DNA of 64,000 nucleotides from a bacterium HR21. Lineage in GTDB: Bacteria; Bacteroidota; Ignavibacteria; Kapaibacteriales; HRBIN21. Both the position numbers and the translations under genes were made by a program. Of the stretch, positions 48,225-59,618 are shown piece by piece (positions within the stretch are counted from its first letter, which is position 1; every line of letters begins with the position of its first letter). The notes beneath the pieces were generated by a model. It ran no database searches, was not told the DNA's origin, and saw only the letters and a program-made list of their open reading frames with translations. The stretch spans positions 1 to 64,000 of the forward strand of contig BEHX01000011.1 in the NCBI GenBank assembly GCA_002898295.1, in the 5' to 3' direction.

Positions 48225-48239
48225 CCCCGCGCTGTGCCG

Positions 48240-49901
48240 ATGGCAGTGGGAGCGCTCACGCTGGTGCTGCATTCCCATCTGCCGTATGTACTCCATCACG
48301 GACGCTTTCCCCACGGCAGCGAGTGGCTCTGCGAGGCGGTTGCCGAGTGCTACCTCCCGCTTCTGGGCGGGATTCGGCGGCTTGTGCGTCGGGGACTGCT
48401 CCCGCGATGGACGCTGGAGTTTTCGCCCGTCCTCTGCGAGCAGCTGGCTCAGCCTGCCTTTCGGGTGCTTTTCCAGCAGTACTGCCGGGACAAGATGGCA
48501 GCGGCTCGCGACGACGAGCTGCACTTCCTGCGCTACGGCTATGGCGAGCAGTGGGTACGCCTGGCACGCTTCTGGCAGAGTTGGTATGCTGCACGCTTGG
48601 AGGAGTTTCTGGAGGAGTACCGGGGGGAGATCCTTGGGGCATTTGCACGCCTCCAGGAGCTGGGCGTGCTCGAGCTAGCAGGCTCAGCCGCAACGCATGC
48701 GTACCTGCCGCTGTTGCCGAGTGAACAGGCGGTAGCCTTCCAGCTGCGGGTGGGGGTGGAAACGTACCGACGTCACTTCCGGCGCGCCCCTGACTCGTTC
48801 TGGCTACCGGAGTGCGGCTACTACCCGGCAGGTGATCGGACAGCGGTCCCGCTCTACGGGGAGATGGCTGCCCGGATGCGGGGAGTAGAAGAGTGGTTGG
48901 CACGGCTCGGGGTCGGAGGGTTTGTCGTCGAACAACAGCTGCTGGAACGGGCACAGGTGTGGACCGATGCAGAGGCACTCTCGCCCACGGTGCGGCTGCT
49001 GCAACCGCAGTGGTGTGTCTCTTCCCCGGATGCGGGATACGGCTGTACTGTGCTTGCTCGCTACCAGCTGCTGGCTGCCCGTATCTGGGATGCGCGCACG
49101 GGCTATCCCGGCGACGGGGATTACCTGGATTTCCACAAACGGCACTATACCTCGTGGCTGCGCTACTGGCGGGTCACCGATAACCGACTCGATATGCAGT
49201 ACAAGCTTCTCTACGTTCCCGAGTGGGCGGAAGGGAAAGCCCGGCAGCACGCGGAGCATTTTGCCGAGCTGGTGGTCACAACGCTGGCGCAGGTGCGGCA
49301 CAGTACAGCCCTCTTTCCCGTGGCGTGCCTCCCCTTTGATACCGAGCTTTTCGGGCACTGGTGGTTTGAGGGACCGATGTTCCTGGAGCATCTCGTCGAA
49401 CGCCTCACCGAAGCGCAGCAGGTAGAACTGTGGACTTTCCGGGAATGCCGGCAGCGAGTCGGACCAGCGGCACGCGTGCGTCTGCCTGCCGGTTCGTGGG
49501 GCAAAGATGCCGGGCATGAGCCCTGGGGGAATCCGCAGGTATGGTGGATGTGGCACGCTGTGGCACAGGCAGAGCGGCAGCTCAACGAGCTGCTGCGCCG
49601 CTTCCCGGCGCCACGGCGGACCCCGGTGCATGACCGCCTCTTCTGCCAAGCACTGCGAGAACTCCTCCTGATGCAGGCATCGGACTGGAGCTTCCTCGTT
49701 GTGACGGGCTCTGCACGGGACTACGCGGAGCAACGCTTCACTTTCCATGCTCAGGATTTCCAGCGCCTGCTCCAGCTTCTGGAGCAGCTCGACGAGCGTG
49801 GAGAACTCCGCCCTGACGGAGAGGCTTTCCTCCAAGCGCTCGAACAGCGGGATGCTCTCTTCCCTGAACTGAGGCTGCACTGGTGGGAGGAGCCTCTATG
49901 A
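48240..49901 (+). CDS. GH57 1,4-alpha-glucan branching enzyme
   Basis: 553 aa from the ATG at 48240 (track starts at a GTG two codons earlier). GH57 features: TLVLHSHLPYVLHHGRFPHGSEWL, nucleophile Glu in SFWLPECGYYP, acid/base Asp in LPFDTELFGHWWFEGP, and the DUF1957 C-terminal region (FCQALRELLLMQASDWSFLV..G.A.DYA..R...H). It branches alpha-1,4-glucan, complementing GlgP. ATGA overlap with the UbiA-HAD gene, so it shares a transcript with the Dpr-type genes. Confidence 0.92.
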   Translation: MAVGALTLVLHSHLPYVLHHGRFPHGSEWLCEAVAECYLPLLGGIRRLVRRGLLPRWTLEFSPVLCEQLAQPAFRVLFQQYCRDKMAAARDDELHFLRYGYGEQWVRLARFWQSWYAARLEEFLEEYRGEILGAFARLQELGVLELAGSAATHAYLPLLPSEQAVAFQLRVGVETYRRHFRRAPDSFWLPECGYYPAGDRTAVPLYGEMAARMRGVEEWLARLGVGGFVVEQQLLERAQVWTDAEALSPTVRLLQPQWCVSSPDAGYGCTVLARYQLLAARIWDARTGYPGDGDYLDFHKRHYTSWLRYWRVTDNRLDMQYKLLYVPEWAEGKARQHAEHFAELVVTTLAQVRHSTALFPVACLPFDTELFGHWWFEGPMFLEHLVERLTEAQQVELWTFRECRQRVGPAARVRLPAGSWGKDAGHEPWGNPQVWWMWHAVAQAERQLNELLRRFPAPRRTPVHDRLFCQALRELLLMQASDWSFLVVTGSARDYAEQRFTFHAQDFQRLLQLLEQLDERGELRPDGEAFLQALEQRDALFPELRLHWWEEPL

Positions 49902-51313
49902 GTCAGTCATTGCCCCCTCTTGTGGTGGATCTGGACGGCACGCTCCTGCGGACAGACACGCTCTGGGAGAGTTTCCTGGGGCTTCTCCGACGGCGTCCGT
50001 GGCGGATTCTCTGGATGCCGTTCTGGCTCCTGCAGGGACGGGCTGTTCTCAAGGTACGCCTCCTGGCGGAGGCTCTGCCCGATATTGAGTACTTGCCGCT
50101 GCGCGAGGAGGTGCTCCAGTGGCTGCAGGCGGAGCGTTGCCGAGGACGGCGGCTCATTTTGGCAACGGCGAGCCCTGCCTCCGTCGGTCAGGTGCTGGCC
50201 CAGCGGTTAGGACTCTTCGAGGCGGTGGTGGGAAGCTCCGACACGCTCAACGCGCGGGGAAAAGCAAAGCTGGCACTGGTCCGGCAGTACCTGGGTGAGC
50301 TTCCTTTTGAGTACCTCGGCAACTCGTGGGCAGATTTCCCCGTGTGGGCAGGAGCGGTGGAAGCGCACGTGGTCGGCACTCCGCGCTTTATCCGCCGGGT
50401 GCGGCGGCATTTCCCGCGCGGGCGTGACTTCCCTCAGCCGCTGCGGTGGAGCGCGCTGCTGGGGTTGTTGCGTCCGTACCAGTGGGTCAAGAACCTGCTG
50501 GTGTTCCTGCCCATGCTCTTAGCCCACCGGGTGTTGGAGGGAGCGCTCTGGGGAAAGGCGATAGCAGCCTTCGCTGCGCTGAGCTTGGTTGCTTCAGGGC
50601 TGTATGTGGTCAACGATCTGCTCGATGTGGAGGCAGATCGGCACCATCCGCGCAAGCGCTTCCGTCCCCTTGCTCGGGGTGATGTGCCGCTGTGGGTGGG
50701 GATGGTCATGGCACCACTGGTTTTCGGGATGGGCTTCGGGATTGCTGGGGCAGTGCTGCCTCCGCTCGGGGTCTTGGCTGTCGGGCTTTACGGAGGACTT
50801 TCGGCGGCGTACTCGCTGTGGCTCAAAACGCTCCCGCTGCTCGACGTGCTGGCGCTTGCCGGGCTCTACACCGTCCGTGTCCTTGCCGGTGGGTGGGCAA
50901 CGCAGGTACCGCTCTCGGGGTGGCTGTTGACCTTTGCCATTTTCTTCTTCCTGAGCTTGGCGTTTCTGAAGCGCTACGTTGAGCTTCGGGCGTTGGGCGG
51001 AGCAGAGCTCCCGCGACGGGGCTATACGAGCCAGGACGAAGCTCTGGTTCGTACCTTCGGCATCGCCAGCGGGTATTTGGCTGTGCTGGTCTTCGTGCTC
51101 TACTTGAATAGTCCGGCGGTGGTCACGCTCTATCGGGAGCCTCGCTGGCTGTGGTTGAGTGTGCCATTGTTGCTGTACTGGATTGCATACCTCTGGCTCA
51201 GTGCCCATCGTGGGCGCATGCCCGATGATCCGATTCTCTTCGTGCTCCGTGATCCGGTCAGCTACATTGTTGCCGCGGGCTTACTGGGGCTCTTCGTGCT
51301 GGGCAGCGCATGA
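49898..51313 (+). CDS. HAD phosphatase-UbiA prenyltransferase fusion (DPPR synthase-like)
   Basis: 471 aa. Residues 5-165: HAD domain with motif I VVDLDGTLLRTD (Asp10, Asp12), motif II ATASP and motif III/IV LGNSWADFP. Residues ~185-470: UbiA-type with about eight helices; NDLLDVEADRHHPRKRFRPLARG and SLWLKTLPLLDVLALAGLYTVRVLAGG match the decaprenyl-phosphate 5-phosphoribosyltransferase subgroup (Rv3806c-like). Predicted: transfer of 5-phosphoribose from PRPP to polyprenyl phosphate and removal of the 5-phosphate in one polypeptide. Followed by dprE1-dprE2, consistent with that pathway. Confidence 0.88.
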   Translation: MSQSLPPLVVDLDGTLLRTDTLWESFLGLLRRRPWRILWMPFWLLQGRAVLKVRLLAEALPDIEYLPLREEVLQWLQAERCRGRRLILATASPASVGQVLAQRLGLFEAVVGSSDTLNARGKAKLALVRQYLGELPFEYLGNSWADFPVWAGAVEAHVVGTPRFIRRVRRHFPRGRDFPQPLRWSALLGLLRPYQWVKNLLVFLPMLLAHRVLEGALWGKAIAAFAALSLVASGLYVVNDLLDVEADRHHPRKRFRPLARGDVPLWVGMVMAPLVFGMGFGIAGAVLPPLGVLAVGLYGGLSAAYSLWLKTLPLLDVLALAGLYTVRVLAGGWATQVPLSGWLLTFAIFFFLSLAFLKRYVELRALGGAELPRRGYTSQDEALVRTFGIASGYLAVLVFVLYLNSPAVVTLYREPRWLWLSVPLLLYWIAYLWLSAHRGRMPDDPILFVLRDPVSYIVAAGLLGLFVLGSA

Positions 51314-52632
51314 GAGTGCATGGCTACCTTTCGTGGGGACGATATCCTCGGCTGTATCCGGCGGCGGTGTGGCGGCTCCACTGGCGCGGCGAGGCGCTGC
51401 CGTCGGTGCCACCGGGGATGAGCCTCTTGCCCCGCGGGTATGGACGGAGCTACGGGGATTGTTGCCTCAACGAGGGTGGGCTGCTGCTCGATGTCACTGG
51501 GTTGGACCGGTTCCTCGCCTTCGATCCGGAGCAGGGGCTGCTCCGGTGCGAGGCGGGGATCAGCATGGCGGAGATTGTGTCTTTCGCGCTGCCTCGCGGC
51601 TACTTCGTACCAGTAACGCCGGGGACGAAGTGGGTCTCGCTCGGTGGGGCGATCGCCAACGATGTGCATGGGAAGAATCACCACCGCGCCGGGAGCTTCG
51701 GGTGTGCGGTGTGCGCCTTTGAACTGGTGCGCTCCTCCGGGGAGCGGCTACGGTGTACGCCGACGGAGAACGCCGAGCTTTTCCGGGCAACAATTGGTGG
51801 GCTGGGCTTGACTGGGCTGATAACGTGGGCAGAGATTCGGCTCCGACCAGTGGAGACAGCCTGGATGCGGGTGGAAGTGATCCCCTTCGGACATGTGCGG
51901 GAGTTCTTCCGCTTGAGCCGGGAATCAGATGCCGCCTTCGAGTACACGGTCGCCTGGGTGGATGTGACAGCTCGGGGAAAGCAGCTCGGGCGCGGGATTT
52001 TCTGGCGGGGCAACCATGCCCGGCGAGAGGAGGCACCCCGGGAGCTCCCGCGGAGGAGGCTCCGCCTGTCCCTGCCAGTGGATGCTCCGGAATGGCTGCT
52101 GAATCCGTGGAGTGCACGGCTGGCCAATGCGCTCTACTTCCGCCTCCATCGCCGGCGGGAAGGGATTGTGCCGTACGACGCCTTTTTCTACCCGCTGGAT
52201 GCGCTCGGGCAGTGGAATCGGCTTTACGGCGCTCGGGGCTTTGTGCAGTACCAGTGTGTTGTGCCGCCGGAGACAGCCGAAGGGGCCGTAGAGGAGCTGC
52301 TCGAGCGGATTGCCGCTGCGCGGGTGACGGCACTTCTGGGGGTGCTCAAAGTGTTCGGTGCACAGCGTTCGCCGGGTATGCTCTCGTTCCCACGTCCTGG
52401 AGTGACACTGGCGGTGGATTTTGCCCTCGAGGGGGAGAAGACCTGGCAAGTGTTGGCGCAGTTGGACGCGTGTGTCCGTGCGGCAGGGGGAGCGCTCTAT
52501 CCGGCAAAGGATGCCCGGATGCCGCCGGAGATGTTCGTCCATTCGTTCCCGCAGTGGCGGGAGTTTGCCCGATATCGGGACCCGCTCTTTTCGTCGAGCT
52601 TCTGGCGACGTGTCACACGGGGGTTGGACTGA
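51310..52632 (+). CDS. dprE1: DprE1-like FAD-dependent decaprenylphosphoryl-beta-D-ribose 2'-oxidase
   Basis: 440 aa. VAO-type FAD fold: LLPRGYGRSYGDCCLNEGG, GTKWVSLGGAIANDVHGKNHHRAGSFG (FAD-binding loop with His), LFRATIGGLGLTGLI, and C-terminal LYPAKDARM...F. It should oxidise C2' of polyprenyl-phosphoryl-ribose; the mycobacterial drug-target cysteine position cannot be aligned confidently here. ATGA overlap upstream, TGATG overlap with dprE2. Confidence 0.88.
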   Translation: MRVHGYLSWGRYPRLYPAAVWRLHWRGEALPSVPPGMSLLPRGYGRSYGDCCLNEGGLLLDVTGLDRFLAFDPEQGLLRCEAGISMAEIVSFALPRGYFVPVTPGTKWVSLGGAIANDVHGKNHHRAGSFGCAVCAFELVRSSGERLRCTPTENAELFRATIGGLGLTGLITWAEIRLRPVETAWMRVEVIPFGHVREFFRLSRESDAAFEYTVAWVDVTARGKQLGRGIFWRGNHARREEAPRELPRRRLRLSLPVDAPEWLLNPWSARLANALYFRLHRRREGIVPYDAFFYPLDALGQWNRLYGARGFVQYQCVVPPETAEGAVEELLERIAAARVTALLGVLKVFGAQRSPGMLSFPRPGVTLAVDFALEGEKTWQVLAQLDACVRAAGGALYPAKDARMPPEMFVHSFPQWREFARYRDPLFSSSFWRRVTRGLD

Positions 52633-53372
52633 TGCGGCGTGTCCTGCTCATCGGGGCAACTTCGGCAATTGCCCAGGAAGTCGGGCGCCTCTACGCGGAG
52701 CGGCAGGCGCAGGTGTTCCTCGTCGGGCGCACGGCAGAGAAGCTCGAAGCGGTGGCGGCAGACCTAACCGTGCGCGGAGCCAAGGTTGTCGGCACCGTGT
52801 GTTGGGATGCACGGGATTGGGCACAGGCAGCCGACATTGTTGCCCGCGCCCGGCACGCGCTGGGGGTGCTGGAAGTCGTGCTCATCGCTCACGGGAGCCT
52901 GCCTCGGCAGGAGGAACTCTGGCATCACCCGGAGCGAAGTGTGGAGCAGTTCCAGCTCAATGCTACCAGTGTGGTGGCGCTTCTCAGCGCGCTCGTGCCC
53001 GTGCTCCAGGCACAGCGTCGTGGCACTGTCGGAGTCATCAGTTCTGTGGCAGGTGAGCGTGGGCGGGCACGTATGGCTGTGTACGGGGCGGCAAAAGCCG
53101 CGGTGACGGCGTTCAGTGCCGGTGTTCGCGGCTACTTGTACCCGTACGGTGTGAAGCTCATCACGATCAAGCCTGGGGTTGTTGACACTCCCATGACCGC
53201 CCATCTGCCGAAGAACTTCCTGTTTGCCTCCGCCCGTGCTGTCGGGAGGCGCATCTACCGGGCGCTCGAGCGTGGGGCGCCGGATATTCTCTACGTGCCC
53301 TGGTGGTGGCGTCCAGTGATGGCGCTTGCCCGGCTCGTGCCGGAACGCCTCTTCAAACGGCTCCGGATCTAG
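52632..53372 (+). CDS. dprE2: DprE2-like short-chain dehydrogenase
   Basis: 246 aa. SDR fold: VLLIGATSAIAQEVGRLYAERQAQVFLVGR (NAD(P)-binding), VLIAHGSLP, SSVAGERGRARMAVYGAAKAAVTAF (Ser...Tyr-x3-Lys catalytic set), IKPGVVDTPMT. 'GATSAIAQE' is typical of DprE2. It would reduce the 2'-keto intermediate, completing epimerisation to arabinose. Last gene of the run; intergenic space of 327 nt follows. Confidence 0.85.
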   Translation: MRRVLLIGATSAIAQEVGRLYAERQAQVFLVGRTAEKLEAVAADLTVRGAKVVGTVCWDARDWAQAADIVARARHALGVLEVVLIAHGSLPRQEELWHHPERSVEQFQLNATSVVALLSALVPVLQAQRRGTVGVISSVAGERGRARMAVYGAAKAAVTAFSAGVRGYLYPYGVKLITIKPGVVDTPMTAHLPKNFLFASARAVGRRIYRALERGAPDILYVPWWWRPVMALARLVPERLFKRLRI

Positions 53373-53561: not shown

Positions 53562-53699
53562 TGCCCAGCAACGTGACGCATGCGGGCGGTGTGCATGCCG
53601 GTGCGATGTCAGAGTACCTCCCTTGGTCTTCCCTGCCGTTCGGTACATGGACTGCACGTTTGCTGCACAGGAAGTCTCACTCTGCGCGCGAGGGTTCTC

Positions 53700-56600
53700 A
53701 TGCGGATGATGACGCTGGTTCTCGGTGTATTTCTCCTCTCGGTGTGGGCAGCACAGGGTGCGCAAGAGCAGCAAGTCCCCTATAGCGGGGTAGCCCTCTC
53801 TGCTGCGGGAGAGCCTGTGCCCGACGGGCTCCATCGGATGGAGTTCTGCCTGTTTGAGTCGGGAGGCACGCAGCCAATCTGGAGCGAAGTCCACCTGGTG
53901 GAGACGCGAGCAGGTGCCTATCAGGTGCTCTTGGGGAGCGCACGCCCTCTCCGACTCGCCGCGGGGAAGCAGTACTGGCTTGAGGTCTTCTGCGATGGGC
54001 ACTCACTGGGACGGTTCGCATTCCCTGTGGTGAGCTCGCAGGAGCAGAAGGGGGTTCCAGGATTCCGGATGGCGCCGATCCAAGACCGGACCGAGGCTGG
54101 CAAGACGGCCGTGATGGATGGACGTGGGCAGCTCCCGGTTCTCGGAGGGGTCTCCCCAGCAATGCCCCTGGTGGTCAATACGTGTGCTGAGTGCACCACA
54201 ACCTTTTGGTCGCTGACGGGGAATGCAGGTACTGATCCGGCGAATAACTTTTTGGGTACAACCGATAACCAGCCCCTCATCATCCGCACGAACAATGTCA
54301 ACCGTGTGCGGATCACCACCGGAGGACAGATTGAGGTTCTCAATAGCGGGCAGTCCGTTGCGCTCGGCGAGGCTGCTGGGACGGCAATGGACTTGACCTC
54401 GCCCCGACAGAATACTTTTGTCGGCTACCAAGCGGGGAGCCTGACAGAGACAGGGGAGAAGAACGTTGCCGTGGGAGCAACTGCGCTGTCGCAGAACATT
54501 GACGGCACGGGCAATACAGCGCTGGGCTCGAGCACGCTCACCAGTGTTACCAGTGGGAATTACAATACCGCGATCGGCTTCGGTGCCGATGTCAATGGAA
54601 ACCTTACGAATGCAACGGCAATAGGTGCCTATGCGTTTGCGGCTTCTGATAACAGTGTTGTCATCGGCTCCATTGCAGGAGTCAATGGTGCGCCGGCGTC
54701 AGCGAATGTGGGGATTGGCACAACGGCACCCACACATCGTCTCCACGTTGTGAGCACCGCTGACCCGCTCCGTATTCAGGGACTCCAGGTGGATAACACG
54801 CTGGACAATGCGTTGGTGATAGACCCCAGCGGCATTGTCAAGATCCGCTCGCTTGCCGGACTGGTTGGCTCAACTGCCTGGTTGTTGACGGGCAATACGC
54901 TCTCGGGAGGAGAGGTTCTGGGGTCGCTCAATGCGCAGCCGTTGGTTGTGGTAACTAATGGTACCGAGCGGCTGCGGGTGACAGCTACAGGAGGGGTGGG
55001 TATTGGGACCAATGCTCCCACGGCACAGGTGCACATTATGAGTCCAAGCGGTGGGGAGGTGTTGAAGCTACAGGCGGTGACTGGACAGAGTGGGTCGTTA
55101 TTGCGGTGGGAGGACGAGTTTGGGAATGCGTGGGGTGTAATTGACAACAGTGGGTTAGTGGGGATTGGGACGGCGACGCCGGTGCAGAAGCTGCACGTAG
55201 TTGGCAATGGGGCGGTATCGGCGGTGTTTGTCGAGGGCGGGGTAGGGGTAGGGACGGTCAATCCGCTGGCGACGCTACACGTGTACGACGAGGGGACGCT
55301 GACTCCGGGGACGACACAGGTATTGATTACGGCGGGGGCAAGTCAGGTCGGTAGTGGGGTCGCGTTACTGCGGTGGGAAGACAATGGGAGCAATGTGCTT
55401 GGGGTCATCGATGAGGTGGGGCAGGTGGGGATTGGGACAGCGGCACCGGCAAGGCGGTTGCACGTGGTGGGACCGGGAGGAGGGATTTCACCGGTGAGGC
55501 TGGAGCAGGTTCCGGTAGCGGCAGATGACGATGTACTGACGGTGAACAGCGGTGGGGATGTGCGCAAGCGGTCGTTGTCGGGGGCAATTAGCGGGATGGC
55601 CTGGTTGTTAGGTGGCAACACGTTGACAAGTGAGCAGGCGTTGGGGACCTTGAGTGGGCATGATTTGCCGATTTACACGGCGGGCAGCGAGCGGATGCGG
55701 ATTACGACCTCGGGCAACGTCGGCATCGGGACGGCAAGTCCGGGTGAGCGGTTGGATGTTGCAGGTAACGTACGTTTCAGCGGGGCATTGATGCCGGCGG
55801 GGATGCCAGGGGCAGGAGGGCAGGTGCTGGTCTCTCAGGGGGCGGGGACAGCCCCGGTGTGGAGCAATGACATGTACTGGGACCAAGGAACACAGCGGCT
55901 TGGGATCGGAACGGCAACGCCGACAGCGAAGCTGGACGTGCGAGGAGGTATCTACGCGCAGCATCCAACTGGTGGAGATGTATTGACACTCCAGGCGGTG
56001 GTGGGGCAGACTGGGGCGTTGTTGACATGGGTGGACGAGACGGGGACGCCCTGGGGTGTGATAGACAACGGTGGGCTTGTTGGGATTGGGACGACGACGC
56101 CGGTACAGAAGCTGCACGTAGTTGGCAATGGGGCGGTATCGGCGGTGTTTGTCGAGGGTGGGGTAGGGGTAGGGACGGTCAATCCGCTGGCGACGCTACA
56201 CGTGTACGACGAGGGGACGCTGACTCCGGGGACGACACAGGTATTGATTACGGCGGGGGCAAGTCAGGTCGGTAGTGGGGTCGCGTTACTGCGGTGGGAA
56301 GACAATGGGAGCAATGTGCTTGGGGTCATCGATGAGGTGGGGCAGGTGGGGATTGGGACAGCGGCACCGGCAAGGCGGTTGCACGTGGAGGGGGATGGGA
56401 CGGCGCCACCGGCACGGGTGACGAACCTGACGACGGGGGCAGCCACGGACAATGTGGTGGTGGTGGATGCCGCGGGGGATCTGAAGCAGATCGGGGCGGG
56501 GGCATTGATTGGGGCGCATGCCTGGTTGCTGACGGGCAACGGTGGGACGGACCCGGCAACGAACTTTTTGGGCACCACGGATGGGCAACCGTTGGTGATT

Positions 56601-59600
56601 CGGACGAACAACGTGGAGCGGGTGCGGGTGACGGCGACAGGGCAGGTGGGGATTGGGACGGCGACGCCGGGGGCGCTGCTGCATGTGGCGGGAGATGTGC
56701 GAGTGGATGGCAACACGACGTTGGGGGATGCGGCGACGGACCAGGTGACCTTTACGGCGCGGGTCAACTCGGCGGTGATACCGGCGGTGGACAATGCGTA
56801 TGATTTCGGGGAGAACCTCACGCCGTTGCGGTGGCGCAGTGGGTATTTTGGGACATCGGTGGTGGTGGGGTCGAGTGTGAGCTTGCTGGGGGCGACGAAC
56901 GAGTTGGCGTACAGTGGTGGGGATGGGCTGATACGGGTTGCGGGGGCGAATGCGTTGCAGGTGTGGACCAACGGGGCGGAGCGGGTGCGGGTGACCGGGG
57001 GTGGGGTGGTGCAGATACAGAATCAGGCAGGGGGGACACCGACGACGGAGCTGCAGGTGTTGGCAGGCAACAGTGGGGCGGGTGCGACGCGGCTGCTTTT
57101 GCGGGCAGGCTTGGGGCAATCGGGGACGAATCTGTTTGAGTGGCAGGATGCCACGGGGACGCCCCTTGGGGTGATAGATGCGTCGGGCTTTGTGGGGATT
57201 GGGACCACGACGCCGCAAGTGCCTTTGCATGTGAAGAGCACGCCGTTTACGGCGACGTTTGAGGATGGGACGGTGCGCATAGGGACCATTGGGATAAGTG
57301 GGAGCACGTCGGGACCGGACCTTGTGGTGTGGGATGAGCCTGGGGCGACGCAGGTGGTGTTGCAGTTAGGGACGTCCCAGGCTGGGGCGAACCTTTTGGA
57401 GTGGCAGGATGCTGTGGGGACGGTGTTCGGTGGGGTCGATGATGCGGGGAACTTCTTTGTGAACACGAACACGACGTTGGGGGATGCGGCGGCGGACCAG
57501 GTGACGATCACTGCTGGGACGGTTGTGGCGGCGAACATACCGGGGGGGAGCACGGCGACCGATGTGGTGGTGCGCGCAGGTGGTGGGGCGTTACAGTATC
57601 GGGATGCCGGTGGGTTGATAGGCGGGTATGCCTGGTTGCTGACGGGCAACAGTGGGACGAACCCGGCGACAAACTTTTTGGGCACCACGGATGGGCAACC
57701 GTTGGTGATTCGGACGAACAACGTGGAGCGGGTGCGGGTGACGGCGGCGGGGCAGGTGGGGATTGGGACGCCGACGCCGGGGGCGACGTTGGATGTGGCG
57801 GGGACAGCGAACGTGAGTGGGAACACCAGTGTTGGGGGGAATCTGACGGTTGGGGGCAACACGACGTTGGGGGATGCGACGAGTGACAACGTGACCTTTA
57901 CGGCGCGGGTCAACTCGGCGGTGATACCGGCGGTGGACAATGCGTATGATTTCGGGGAGAACCTCACGCCGTTGCGGTGGCGCAGTGGGTATTTTGGGAC
58001 ATCGGTGGTGGTGGGGTCGAGTGTGAGCTTGCTGGGGGCGACGAACGAGTTGGCGTACAGTGGTGGGGATGGGCTGATACGGGTTGCGGGGGCGAATGCG
58101 TTGCAGGTGTGGACCAACGGGGCGGAGCGGGTGCGGGTGACGGCGGCGGGGGTAGTGCAGGTGCAGAATCAGGCAGGGGGGACACCGACGACGGAGCTGC
58201 AGGTGTTGGCGGGCAACAGTGGGGCGGGTGCGACGCGGGTGGTTATCCAGGCGGGGAATGCTCAGTCGGGGGTGAACCTGTTGGAGTGGCAGGATAACAC
58301 GGGGCAGCTCATTGGGGTGATTGACAACTCGGGCTTTGTGGGCATTGGGGTGAACAATGCCGGCTTTGGTGGGATTGCAGGGTACTTGCACGTATACAGC
58401 AACGCAGCGCAGCCGGCAGCGATCTTCGAGAACGGGGCGGTCGGAATCGGGACGAATGCACCGGACTTCGCCTCGACACTGCATATCTACGATGCCCGAC
58501 CAGCGGGACCAGGGACAGGAGCCACGCGGGTGGTGCTGCAGATGGGGGCTAACCAGGCAGGGGTGAACCTGTTGGAGTGGCAGGATAACACGGGGCAGCT
58601 CATTGGGGTGATTGACAACTCGGGCTTTGTGGGCATTGGGGTGAACAATGCCGGCTTTGGTGGGATTGCAGGGTACTTGCACGTATACAGCAACGCAGCG
58701 CAGCCGGCAGCGATCTTCGAGAACGGGGCGGTCGGAATCGGGACGAATGCACCGGACTTCGCCTCGACACTGCATATCTACGATGCCCGACCAGCGGGAC
58801 CAGGGACAGGAGCCACGCGGGTGGTGCTGCAGATGGGGGCTAACCAGGCAGGGGTGAACCTGTTGGAGTGGCAGGATAACACGGGGCAGCTCATTGGGGT
58901 GATTGACAACTCGGGCTTTGTGGGCATTGGGGTGAACAATGCCGGCTTTGGTGGGATTGCGGGGTACTTGCACGTATACAGCAACGCAGCGCAGCCGGCA
59001 GCGATTTTCGAGAACGGGGCGGTCGGGATCGGGACGAATGCACCGGACTTCGCCTCGACACTGCATATCTACGATGCCCGACCGGCAGGAGCCACGCGGG
59101 TGATTTTGCAGGCGGGCGCTGGGCAAGGGACGACGAACCTATTGGAGTGGCAGAACAGTTCGGGCACAGTGCTCGGGGTCGTCGATGGGGCAGGACGGGT
59201 CGGGATCGGGACGAACACCCCAGGGGCGAAGCTGCACGTGAAGGAGACAGCTCCTGGGGTCTCTCCCGTACGGCTTGGAGGAGTCCCAGCAGCAGCGGCT
59301 ACCGATGAGGTCCTCCGGATTGACGCCAGCGGGAATGTTACCAAAAGCAGTGCTGCTGCCGTTGTCTCGGCAGGTATCATCAAGGGAAGCTTCCCGATTA
59401 CAACGTCCGGCTCTTCCTTCACAATCTCCGTAGCGCCGGCGGATATCCAGTCTGGTGCAATCGTGACGGTAACCTTGGTTGGTCCCAGCAGTGGTACAAT
59501 CTACCCGCTAATGGTGACCAACATCAATGCGGCAGCCGACCAAATCACGGTGGAATCTTCTGCCGTGATCCCTGGTGGTAGTGGCTACGCTATCCACTAC

Positions 59601-59618
59601 ATCATCATCAATCCGTGA
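53700..59618 (+). CDS. Giant repetitive fibre/adhesin-like secreted protein
   Basis: 1972 aa from the ATG at 53700, which begins a signal peptide (MRMMTLVLGVFLLSVWAAQGAQ); the 40 upstream residues in the track ORF carry no signal. ~25-130 is an N-terminal beta domain (VPYSGVALSAAGEPVPDGLHRMEFCLF); ~233-325 carries YadA-head-like repeats (GNTALGSSTLTSVTSGNYNT; NATAIGAYAFAASDNSVVIGS). From ~335 to ~1850 there are over a dozen VGIGTxxPxxxLHVxx modules, as in tail-fibre-like proteins of Bacteroidota. The C-terminus (~1880-1972, FPITTSGSSFTISVAPADIQSGAIV...) is a unique beta domain, without an obvious T9SS tail. Contains large near-identical DNA repeats. Confidence 0.85.
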   Translation: MRMMTLVLGVFLLSVWAAQGAQEQQVPYSGVALSAAGEPVPDGLHRMEFCLFESGGTQPIWSEVHLVETRAGAYQVLLGSARPLRLAAGKQYWLEVFCDGHSLGRFAFPVVSSQEQKGVPGFRMAPIQDRTEAGKTAVMDGRGQLPVLGGVSPAMPLVVNTCAECTTTFWSLTGNAGTDPANNFLGTTDNQPLIIRTNNVNRVRITTGGQIEVLNSGQSVALGEAAGTAMDLTSPRQNTFVGYQAGSLTETGEKNVAVGATALSQNIDGTGNTALGSSTLTSVTSGNYNTAIGFGADVNGNLTNATAIGAYAFAASDNSVVIGSIAGVNGAPASANVGIGTTAPTHRLHVVSTADPLRIQGLQVDNTLDNALVIDPSGIVKIRSLAGLVGSTAWLLTGNTLSGGEVLGSLNAQPLVVVTNGTERLRVTATGGVGIGTNAPTAQVHIMSPSGGEVLKLQAVTGQSGSLLRWEDEFGNAWGVIDNSGLVGIGTATPVQKLHVVGNGAVSAVFVEGGVGVGTVNPLATLHVYDEGTLTPGTTQVLITAGASQVGSGVALLRWEDNGSNVLGVIDEVGQVGIGTAAPARRLHVVGPGGGISPVRLEQVPVAADDDVLTVNSGGDVRKRSLSGAISGMAWLLGGNTLTSEQALGTLSGHDLPIYTAGSERMRITTSGNVGIGTASPGERLDVAGNVRFSGALMPAGMPGAGGQVLVSQGAGTAPVWSNDMYWDQGTQRLGIGTATPTAKLDVRGGIYAQHPTGGDVLTLQAVVGQTGALLTWVDETGTPWGVIDNGGLVGIGTTTPVQKLHVVGNGAVSAVFVEGGVGVGTVNPLATLHVYDEGTLTPGTTQVLITAGASQVGSGVALLRWEDNGSNVLGVIDEVGQVGIGTAAPARRLHVEGDGTAPPARVTNLTTGAATDNVVVVDAAGDLKQIGAGALIGAHAWLLTGNGGTDPATNFLGTTDGQPLVIRTNNVERVRVTATGQVGIGTATPGALLHVAGDVRVDGNTTLGDAATDQVTFTARVNSAVIPAVDNAYDFGENLTPLRWRSGYFGTSVVVGSSVSLLGATNELAYSGGDGLIRVAGANALQVWTNGAERVRVTGGGVVQIQNQAGGTPTTELQVLAGNSGAGATRLLLRAGLGQSGTNLFEWQDATGTPLGVIDASGFVGIGTTTPQVPLHVKSTPFTATFEDGTVRIGTIGISGSTSGPDLVVWDEPGATQVVLQLGTSQAGANLLEWQDAVGTVFGGVDDAGNFFVNTNTTLGDAAADQVTITAGTVVAANIPGGSTATDVVVRAGGGALQYRDAGGLIGGYAWLLTGNSGTNPATNFLGTTDGQPLVIRTNNVERVRVTAAGQVGIGTPTPGATLDVAGTANVSGNTSVGGNLTVGGNTTLGDATSDNVTFTARVNSAVIPAVDNAYDFGENLTPLRWRSGYFGTSVVVGSSVSLLGATNELAYSGGDGLIRVAGANALQVWTNGAERVRVTAAGVVQVQNQAGGTPTTELQVLAGNSGAGATRVVIQAGNAQSGVNLLEWQDNTGQLIGVIDNSGFVGIGVNNAGFGGIAGYLHVYSNAAQPAAIFENGAVGIGTNAPDFASTLHIYDARPAGPGTGATRVVLQMGANQAGVNLLEWQDNTGQLIGVIDNSGFVGIGVNNAGFGGIAGYLHVYSNAAQPAAIFENGAVGIGTNAPDFASTLHIYDARPAGPGTGATRVVLQMGANQAGVNLLEWQDNTGQLIGVIDNSGFVGIGVNNAGFGGIAGYLHVYSNAAQPAAIFENGAVGIGTNAPDFASTLHIYDARPAGATRVILQAGAGQGTTNLLEWQNSSGTVLGVVDGAGRVGIGTNTPGAKLHVKETAPGVSPVRLGGVPAAAATDEVLRIDASGNVTKSSAAAVVSAGIIKGSFPITTSGSSFTISVAPADIQSGAIVTVTLVGPSSGTIYPLMVTNINAAADQITVESSAVIPGGSGYAIHYIIINP
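55185..55467 (+). repeat. 283-bp direct repeat, copy 1
   Basis: Identical to 56106-56388 except one noticed base (gagggcgggg versus gagggtgggg). In frame; encodes the QKLHVVGNGAVSAVFVEGG...LHV module. Confidence 0.85.
56106..56388 (+). repeat. 283-bp direct repeat, copy 2
   Basis: Second copy, offset 921 bp (307 codons) from 55185-55467. Confidence 0.85.
56745..56995 (+). repeat. 251-bp direct repeat, copy 1
   Basis: Same as 57891-58141 by eye; module VTFTARVNSAVIPAVDNAYDFG through ERVRVT. Offset 1146 bp (382 codons). Confidence 0.8.
57891..58141 (+). repeat. 251-bp direct repeat, copy 2
   Basis: Second copy of 56745-56995; similarity continues downstream into QNQAGGTPTTELQVLAGNS with a few substitutions. 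Confidence 0.8.
58272..59132 (+). repeat. Three tandem 291-bp (97-aa) repeats
   Basis: Units 58272-58562 and 58563-58853 look identical; the third, 58854-59132, has a few substitutions and a 12-bp in-frame deletion (in the PAGPGTG segment). Each unit encodes one VGIGVNNAGFGGIAGYLHVYS and one VGIGTNAPDFASTLHIYDA module. The repeats are coding, not CRISPR or noncoding. Confidence 0.92.

Follow-up and report, generated by a model that had tools for sequence, protein, structure and literature searches.

A translationally coupled gene trio predicted to make lipid-linked D-arabinofuranose in bacterium HR21, with a candidate AftB-like transferase

The window is the stretch of 64,000 nucleotides analysed here, positions 1 to 64,000 of contig BEHX01000011.1 from bacterium HR21 (assembly GCA_002898295.1). 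At 49898-53372, it carries a translationally coupled trio of genes, whose products are a fusion of HAD and UbiA domains, an oxidase resembling DprE1, and a reductase resembling DprE2. The fusion and DprE1-like genes share an ATGA overlap (51310-51313), and the DprE1-like and DprE2-like genes share a TGATG overlap (52630-52634). A preliminary description of this DNA had reported three overlapping genes, and this is borne out by the open reading frames and by Pfam and NCBIfam. The three coupled genes very probably make lipid-carried arabinose as used in the cell wall of tuberculosis bacteria. Synthesis of lipid-linked arabinofuranose is known above all as a drug target in tuberculosis.

The features of the locus are as follows.

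48234-49901, plus strand: GH57 / 1,4-alpha-glucan branching-enzyme-like protein (PF03065 1e-27, PF09210 2e-22)
49898-51313, plus strand: HAD-UbiA fusion of 471 aa, a predicted polyprenyl-phosphate phosphoribosyltransferase with a built-in 5'-phosphatase (NF006088, 548 bits, above the cut-off of 351)
49919-50341, plus strand: HAD phosphatase domain of the fusion, residues 8-148 (PF12710 2e-8), with D11 as nucleophile, D13 as acid/base, K124, and D146
50456-51277, plus strand: UbiA phosphoribosyltransferase domain of the fusion, residues 187-460, with NDxxDxxxD at N239-D247 and Rv3806c (8j8j) as match
51310-52632, plus strand: DprE1-like oxidase of 440 aa, dependent on flavin adenine dinucleotide (FAD) and predicted to oxidise C2 of polyprenyl-P-ribose (4aut, 1e-76)
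52632-53372, plus strand: DprE2-like short-chain reductase of 246 aa, predicted to reduce the 2-keto group to the arabino form (21gq_C, 3e-27)
53580-59618, plus strand: giant repeat protein, a downstream neighbour conserved in the genus, with homologues after dprE2 in L215, L217, and L218

The GH57 gene ends 4 bases inside the fusion gene, which brings the number of coupled genes to at least four. According to Pfam, the domains of the trio are UbiA (1.6e-20), HAD (2.1e-8), FAD_binding_4 (5e-20), and adh_short (2e-33), in agreement with NCBIfam. The host genome is made up of 17 contigs (1.83 Mb, 61.7% GC, 95% complete) and has a single copy of the fusion. It encodes relatives of LpxB and KdsB, which back a diderm host with lipopolysaccharide (LPS); the preliminary description had spoken of an FCB-type diderm. 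A counterpart of UDP-galactopyranose mutase was not found in this genome.

The fusion is covered by NF006088 from end to end (residues 3-469). In a sequence search of the PDB, the best match of residues 187-460 is Rv3806c, the decaprenyl-phosphate phosphoribosyltransferase of M. tuberculosis (8j8j, E 1e-29). For the comparison of residues, 29 full-length fusions drawn from several phyla were aligned; the characterised Citrobacter fusion is not among them. The binding sites for phosphoribosyl pyrophosphate (PRPP), Mg, and pyrophosphate were taken from the Rv3806c structure (PMC10994848). These residues are invariant in 29/29 fusions, except for Q135 and K208 (Rv3806c numbering), and the counterpart of K208 is unsure in this alignment. 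The NDxxDxxxD loop, R22, K28, K87, R90, Y138, and K143, all Rv3806c-type sites, are invariant across the 29, including the present protein, in which the loop is N239-D240-xx-D243-xxx-D247. The HAD active site is also intact, and D11, D13, K124, and D146 are invariant in the same set. The AlphaFold model of the fusion has a mean predicted local distance difference test score (pLDDT) of 92.6 and a predicted template-modelling (TM) score (pTM) of 0.87. The top Foldseek matches to this model are the Rv3806c structures 8j8j and 8j8k (TM 0.82-0.84 on the target), followed by other UbiA proteins and HAD phosphatases. The preliminary description had proposed such a structure-based search, and the two Rv3806c structures rank first in the PDB. 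It had also proposed aligning the catalytic residues; the UbiA Asp motif, the HAD nucleophile D11 with D13, and the FAD-site His of the oxidase (H120) are all present.

The best solved relative of the oxidase is DprE1 of M. smegmatis (4aut). In DprE1, H132 is the FAD-site His and K418 is the catalytic Lys. The oxidase retains M. tuberculosis H132, K134, Q336, K367, F369, and K418; the equivalents of H132, K134, Q336, K367, and K418 are H120, K122, Q315, K347, and K400. M. tuberculosis Y314 is replaced with Phe, and C387 is replaced with Ala368 (codon 52413-52415). Cys387 of mycobacterial DprE1 is the residue attacked by benzothiazinones. With Ala368, the oxidase would be expected to be naturally insensitive to benzothiazinone-type covalent inhibitors, and an oxidase with Ala at this position could be a comparison enzyme for mycobacterial DprE1. 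For the reductase, the best solved relative is mycobacterial DprE2 (21gq_C), at 99 bits vs 59 for the next short-chain dehydrogenase/reductase (SDR). Its Ser-Tyr-Lys triad is in place (S138, Y151, K155).

Co-occurrence was counted across the order in 41 genomes. UbiA is found in 31/41, DprE1 in 30/41, and DprE2 in 29/41, and the three are all present or all absent apart from two contig breaks. In G005, the fusion match itself runs off the end of the locus examined, and in G017 the contig ends 670 bases past dprE1. The genes co-occur even where dprE2 is on a separate contig, as in G007, G010, G016, G021, and G030, among others. Ten genomes are without all three (G009, G011, G014, G018, G019, G025, G026, G027, G032, and G037). 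These absences are concentrated in a few families and are thus not ten independent losses. A UbiA part that lacks the HAD domain is seen in some of the order's genomes, e.g., G015 (L234:9304-10182), and also G006, G012, G020, G022, and G039.

An acceptor transferase was sought among the GT-C glycosyltransferases, since the preliminary description had suggested looking elsewhere in the genome for GT-C arabinofuranosyltransferases. Candidates were picked from a reading of the whole genome by membrane-helix count and motif, and this hunt gave one candidate. It is an AftB-like GT-C protein of 549 aa, encoded outside the window on the minus strand of contig C9 (G000:C9:58407-60056) beside a gene for a nucleoside diphosphate (NDP)-sugar epimerase. 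The protein is found in 6/6 genomes of the genus and resembles GT-C proteins that Prochlorococcus AG-424-P23 (L030) and a Gallionella (L036) encode within dpr operons. Pfam does not name it, NCBIfam gives only a weak match under the cut-off, and a single-sequence search of the PDB gave nothing useful. A PF13231 search of the host's own genome for generic GT-C proteins had no match. With a ten-sequence profile, the sole significant PDB match is AftB (9dlf, E 6e-11, residues 13-276). The substrate and catalytic residues of AftB are D62 (catalytic), T91, E172, R221, and T274 (PMC12041299). All five are kept, as D33, T63, E136, R179, and T243, and the alignment ends ahead of AftB R372. In a decoy control with filters off, a hidden Markov model (HMM) built from the genus only gives AftB 26.5 bits vs 5.7 for the best among shuffles and other proteins of the same genome. 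In the reverse control, a profile without genus sequences picks the C9 protein at 106 bits vs 6.5 for the next protein of the genome. Because of the broader profile match and the decoy-controlled comparison, the C9 protein is assigned as an AftB-like acceptor transferase, which is likely though not certain. A second GT-C protein (C1:94304-95803) was rejected as the transferase, with no PDB match and only weak similarity in the decoy comparison. A Wzx-like protein (C8:4235-5575) was considered as a flippase and rejected, having no link to the pathway.

The best explanation of the whole is that the locus makes polyprenyl-phosphoryl-D-arabinofuranose, which would then be flipped and transferred by the AftB-like GT-C protein of contig C9. 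This reading is given a probability of roughly 0.85. In the first step, the UbiA domain would transfer ribose-5-phosphate from PRPP onto polyprenyl phosphate, and the fused HAD domain would then strip the 5'-phosphate to leave polyprenyl-P-ribose. The DprE1-like flavoenzyme would oxidise C2, and the DprE2-like SDR would reduce the product with inversion, generating polyprenyl-P-arabinose. The activities, the order of these four steps, and the arabino product are predicted from residues, folds, co-occurrence, and characterised relatives. A flippase would then present the lipid-linked sugar in the periplasm. Finally, the GT-C protein probably passes arabinofuranose to an envelope glycan or protein, a use of lipid-arabinose and a transferase role that are suggested by remote homology. 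The route from PRPP through polyprenyl-P-ribose-5-P and polyprenyl-P-ribose to polyprenyl-P-arabinose is the part of the preliminary description that is well supported, by the conserved residues, the fold, the best-matching solved structures, and co-occurrence. The novelty implied for the fusion is not supported, and the proposed fibre or flagella acceptor has no direct support. A small-genome, LPS-bearing bacterium thereby holds a near-complete candidate set of donor enzymes and an AftB-like transferase. Because the donor trio is kept or lost together across the order and a candidate transferase is at hand, the surface sugar is directly testable in a little-studied lineage.

Several points weigh against this pathway. 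Rv3806c Q135, which contacts ribose O3, is S302 here, and members of the fusion family have S, T, A, or N at this position. The oxidase scores 364 bits vs a cut-off of 500 for the NCBIfam equivalog NF053785, and the reductase scores 149 bits vs 250 for NF053786. Because both are below their equivalog cut-offs, they are named "DprE1-like" and "DprE2-like" here. The GT-C gene is not adjacent to the operon and is on a different contig, and the genus-only profile under standard filters retrieved no AftB from the PDB (nothing at E 1). A GtrA-type (Rv3789-type) flippase was not found in the host's own genome.

The fusion and the pathway are already known, from Kelly et al. 2024 (PMC11127046) and, for the fusion, also from NF006088, and this locus is a further member. 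An N-terminal HAD domain joined to UbiA defines the curated family NF006088 (PRK08238, UbiA family prenyltransferase), which has the same architecture over its full length and states no specific function, and one protein of this kind is biochemically characterised (PMC11127046). This is ORF15 of Citrobacter youngae O1, a PRP-PPPRS fusion with an N-terminal HAD phosphatase and a UbiA phosphoribosyltransferase in one protein. When expressed, ORF15 made farnesyl-P-ribofuranose from PRPP and farnesyl phosphate. A mutant of the HAD Asp left mainly phosphorylated product, and residues of the UbiA loop were also mutated (PMC11127046). The nucleophile and loop motif are at D18 and N247 in ORF15 and at D11 and N239 here, with nearly equal spacing. 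The Citrobacter system, which works with a MATE flippase and GT136, has no DprE1 or DprE2, whereas the present host has the DprE1/DprE2 pair and the AftB-like candidate. Candidate arabinofuranose-glycan systems do carry DprE1/E2 homologues (PMC11127046).

The mycobacterial decaprenyl-phosphoryl-arabinose (DPA) pathway (Rv3806c, Rv3807c, DprE1, DprE2, AftB) has the same chemistry, with a homologous phosphoribosyltransferase, oxidase, and reductase and a remote similarity in AftB. Its phosphatase Rv3807c, however, is unrelated to the fused HAD domain, and the present host differs in having LPS genes and no GtrA-like (Rv3789-type) match. In the Gram-negative Pseudomonas paraeruginosa, D-arabinofuranose is likewise made via a UbiA-type enzyme for pilin glycosylation (PSPA7_6245-6251; PMC12369383). 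That system differs in having a separate phosphatase (per PMC11127046), a type IV pilin acceptor, and the transferase TfpW. What is new here is the candidate acceptor enzyme, the AftB-like GT-C protein.

The cluster of genes for TPR, DUF3467, and GH57 proteins, the fusion, the redox pair dprE1 and dprE2, and the giant repeat protein is preserved across the genus, small gaps aside. Several further families of the order likewise keep GH57 next to the module. Separately, a GH57 gene lies ~6 kb from a dpr cluster on the Omnitrophota contig L069. In another member of the order (L226:8817-13429), the fusion and dprE1 are located between KdsB-like and LpxB-like genes. In one family of the order (L224:9631-13606 and L225:7015-12277), Wzx-like and UDP-galactopyranose mutase genes are directly upstream of the fusion, with PF03275 matches to the mutase of 1e-70 and 6e-75. 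The arrangement is as if galactofuranose and arabinofuranose entered one glycan.

These neighbourhoods bear on the acceptor, which the preliminary description had placed in the giant fibres or flagella. It is unlikely that glycosylation of the adjacent giant repeat protein or flagella is the specific purpose of the arabinose, even though a giant-protein homologue follows dprE2 in three other genomes of the genus and D-arabinofuranose is documented on P. paraeruginosa pilins (PMC12369383). Only gene order was behind that claim. The giant gene starts on its own 207 bases downstream, no transferase adjoins it, and the best transferase candidate is on another contig by the NDP-sugar epimerase gene. 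Elsewhere, the module adjoins KdsB- and LpxB-like genes or follows Wzx-like and mutase genes. The neighbourhoods point to an envelope glycan over a fibre, without settling the matter. In its widest form, which is speculative and rather improbable, most of this order of LPS-bearing bacteria would build a D-arabinofuranose envelope glycan, with an AftB-like transferase in this genus and, in the mutase-adjacent family, an arabinogalactan-like glycan outside Actinobacteria.

Another product could also be considered. The fusion may make lipid-linked ribofuranose, and the redox pair may yield a non-arabino product, e.g., the C3 epimer xylofuranose, or act on another sugar. Ribofuranose and xylofuranose are used in some three-component systems (PMC11127046), and most full-length fusions outside the order are without a DprE1 gene in the DNA examined around them. 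The xylofuranose system, however, has one GalE-like SDR epimerase and not a flavoenzyme with an SDR (PMC11127046). Here, DprE1 and DprE2 are the best solved relatives and all three proteins co-occur, which makes such a product very unlikely. An ordinary prenyltransferase role for the UbiA domain (for quinone, haem, or archaeal-type lipid), with unrelated neighbours, is scarcely credible. Prenyltransferases do share the UbiA fold, and the models for heme o synthase and 4-hydroxybenzoate prenyltransferase match weakly. These matches, however, fall far under cut-off, K28 and the Lys/Arg cluster specific to Rv3806c are invariant, and co-occurrence with DprE1 and DprE2 is strict.

Related gene sets occur in other lineages. 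On a Prochlorococcus single-cell contig (AG-424-P23, 27% GC; L030:1989-8018), a fusion, a GtrA-like flippase, DprE1-like, DprE2-like, and AftB-like GT-C proteins are encoded in a row. This is seemingly a complete lipid-arabinose system, with the Prochlorococcus label of the contig given as recorded. Three SAR11 (Pelagibacter-type) contigs (L027:7977-11005, L033:7971-10976, and L037:8001-10947) have consecutive genes for UbiA, DprE1-like, and DprE2-like proteins with no fused HAD. In a Gallionella (L036:2666-7823), HAD and UbiA are separate adjacent genes by DprE1-like, DprE2-like, and GT-C genes, a split form of the fusion.

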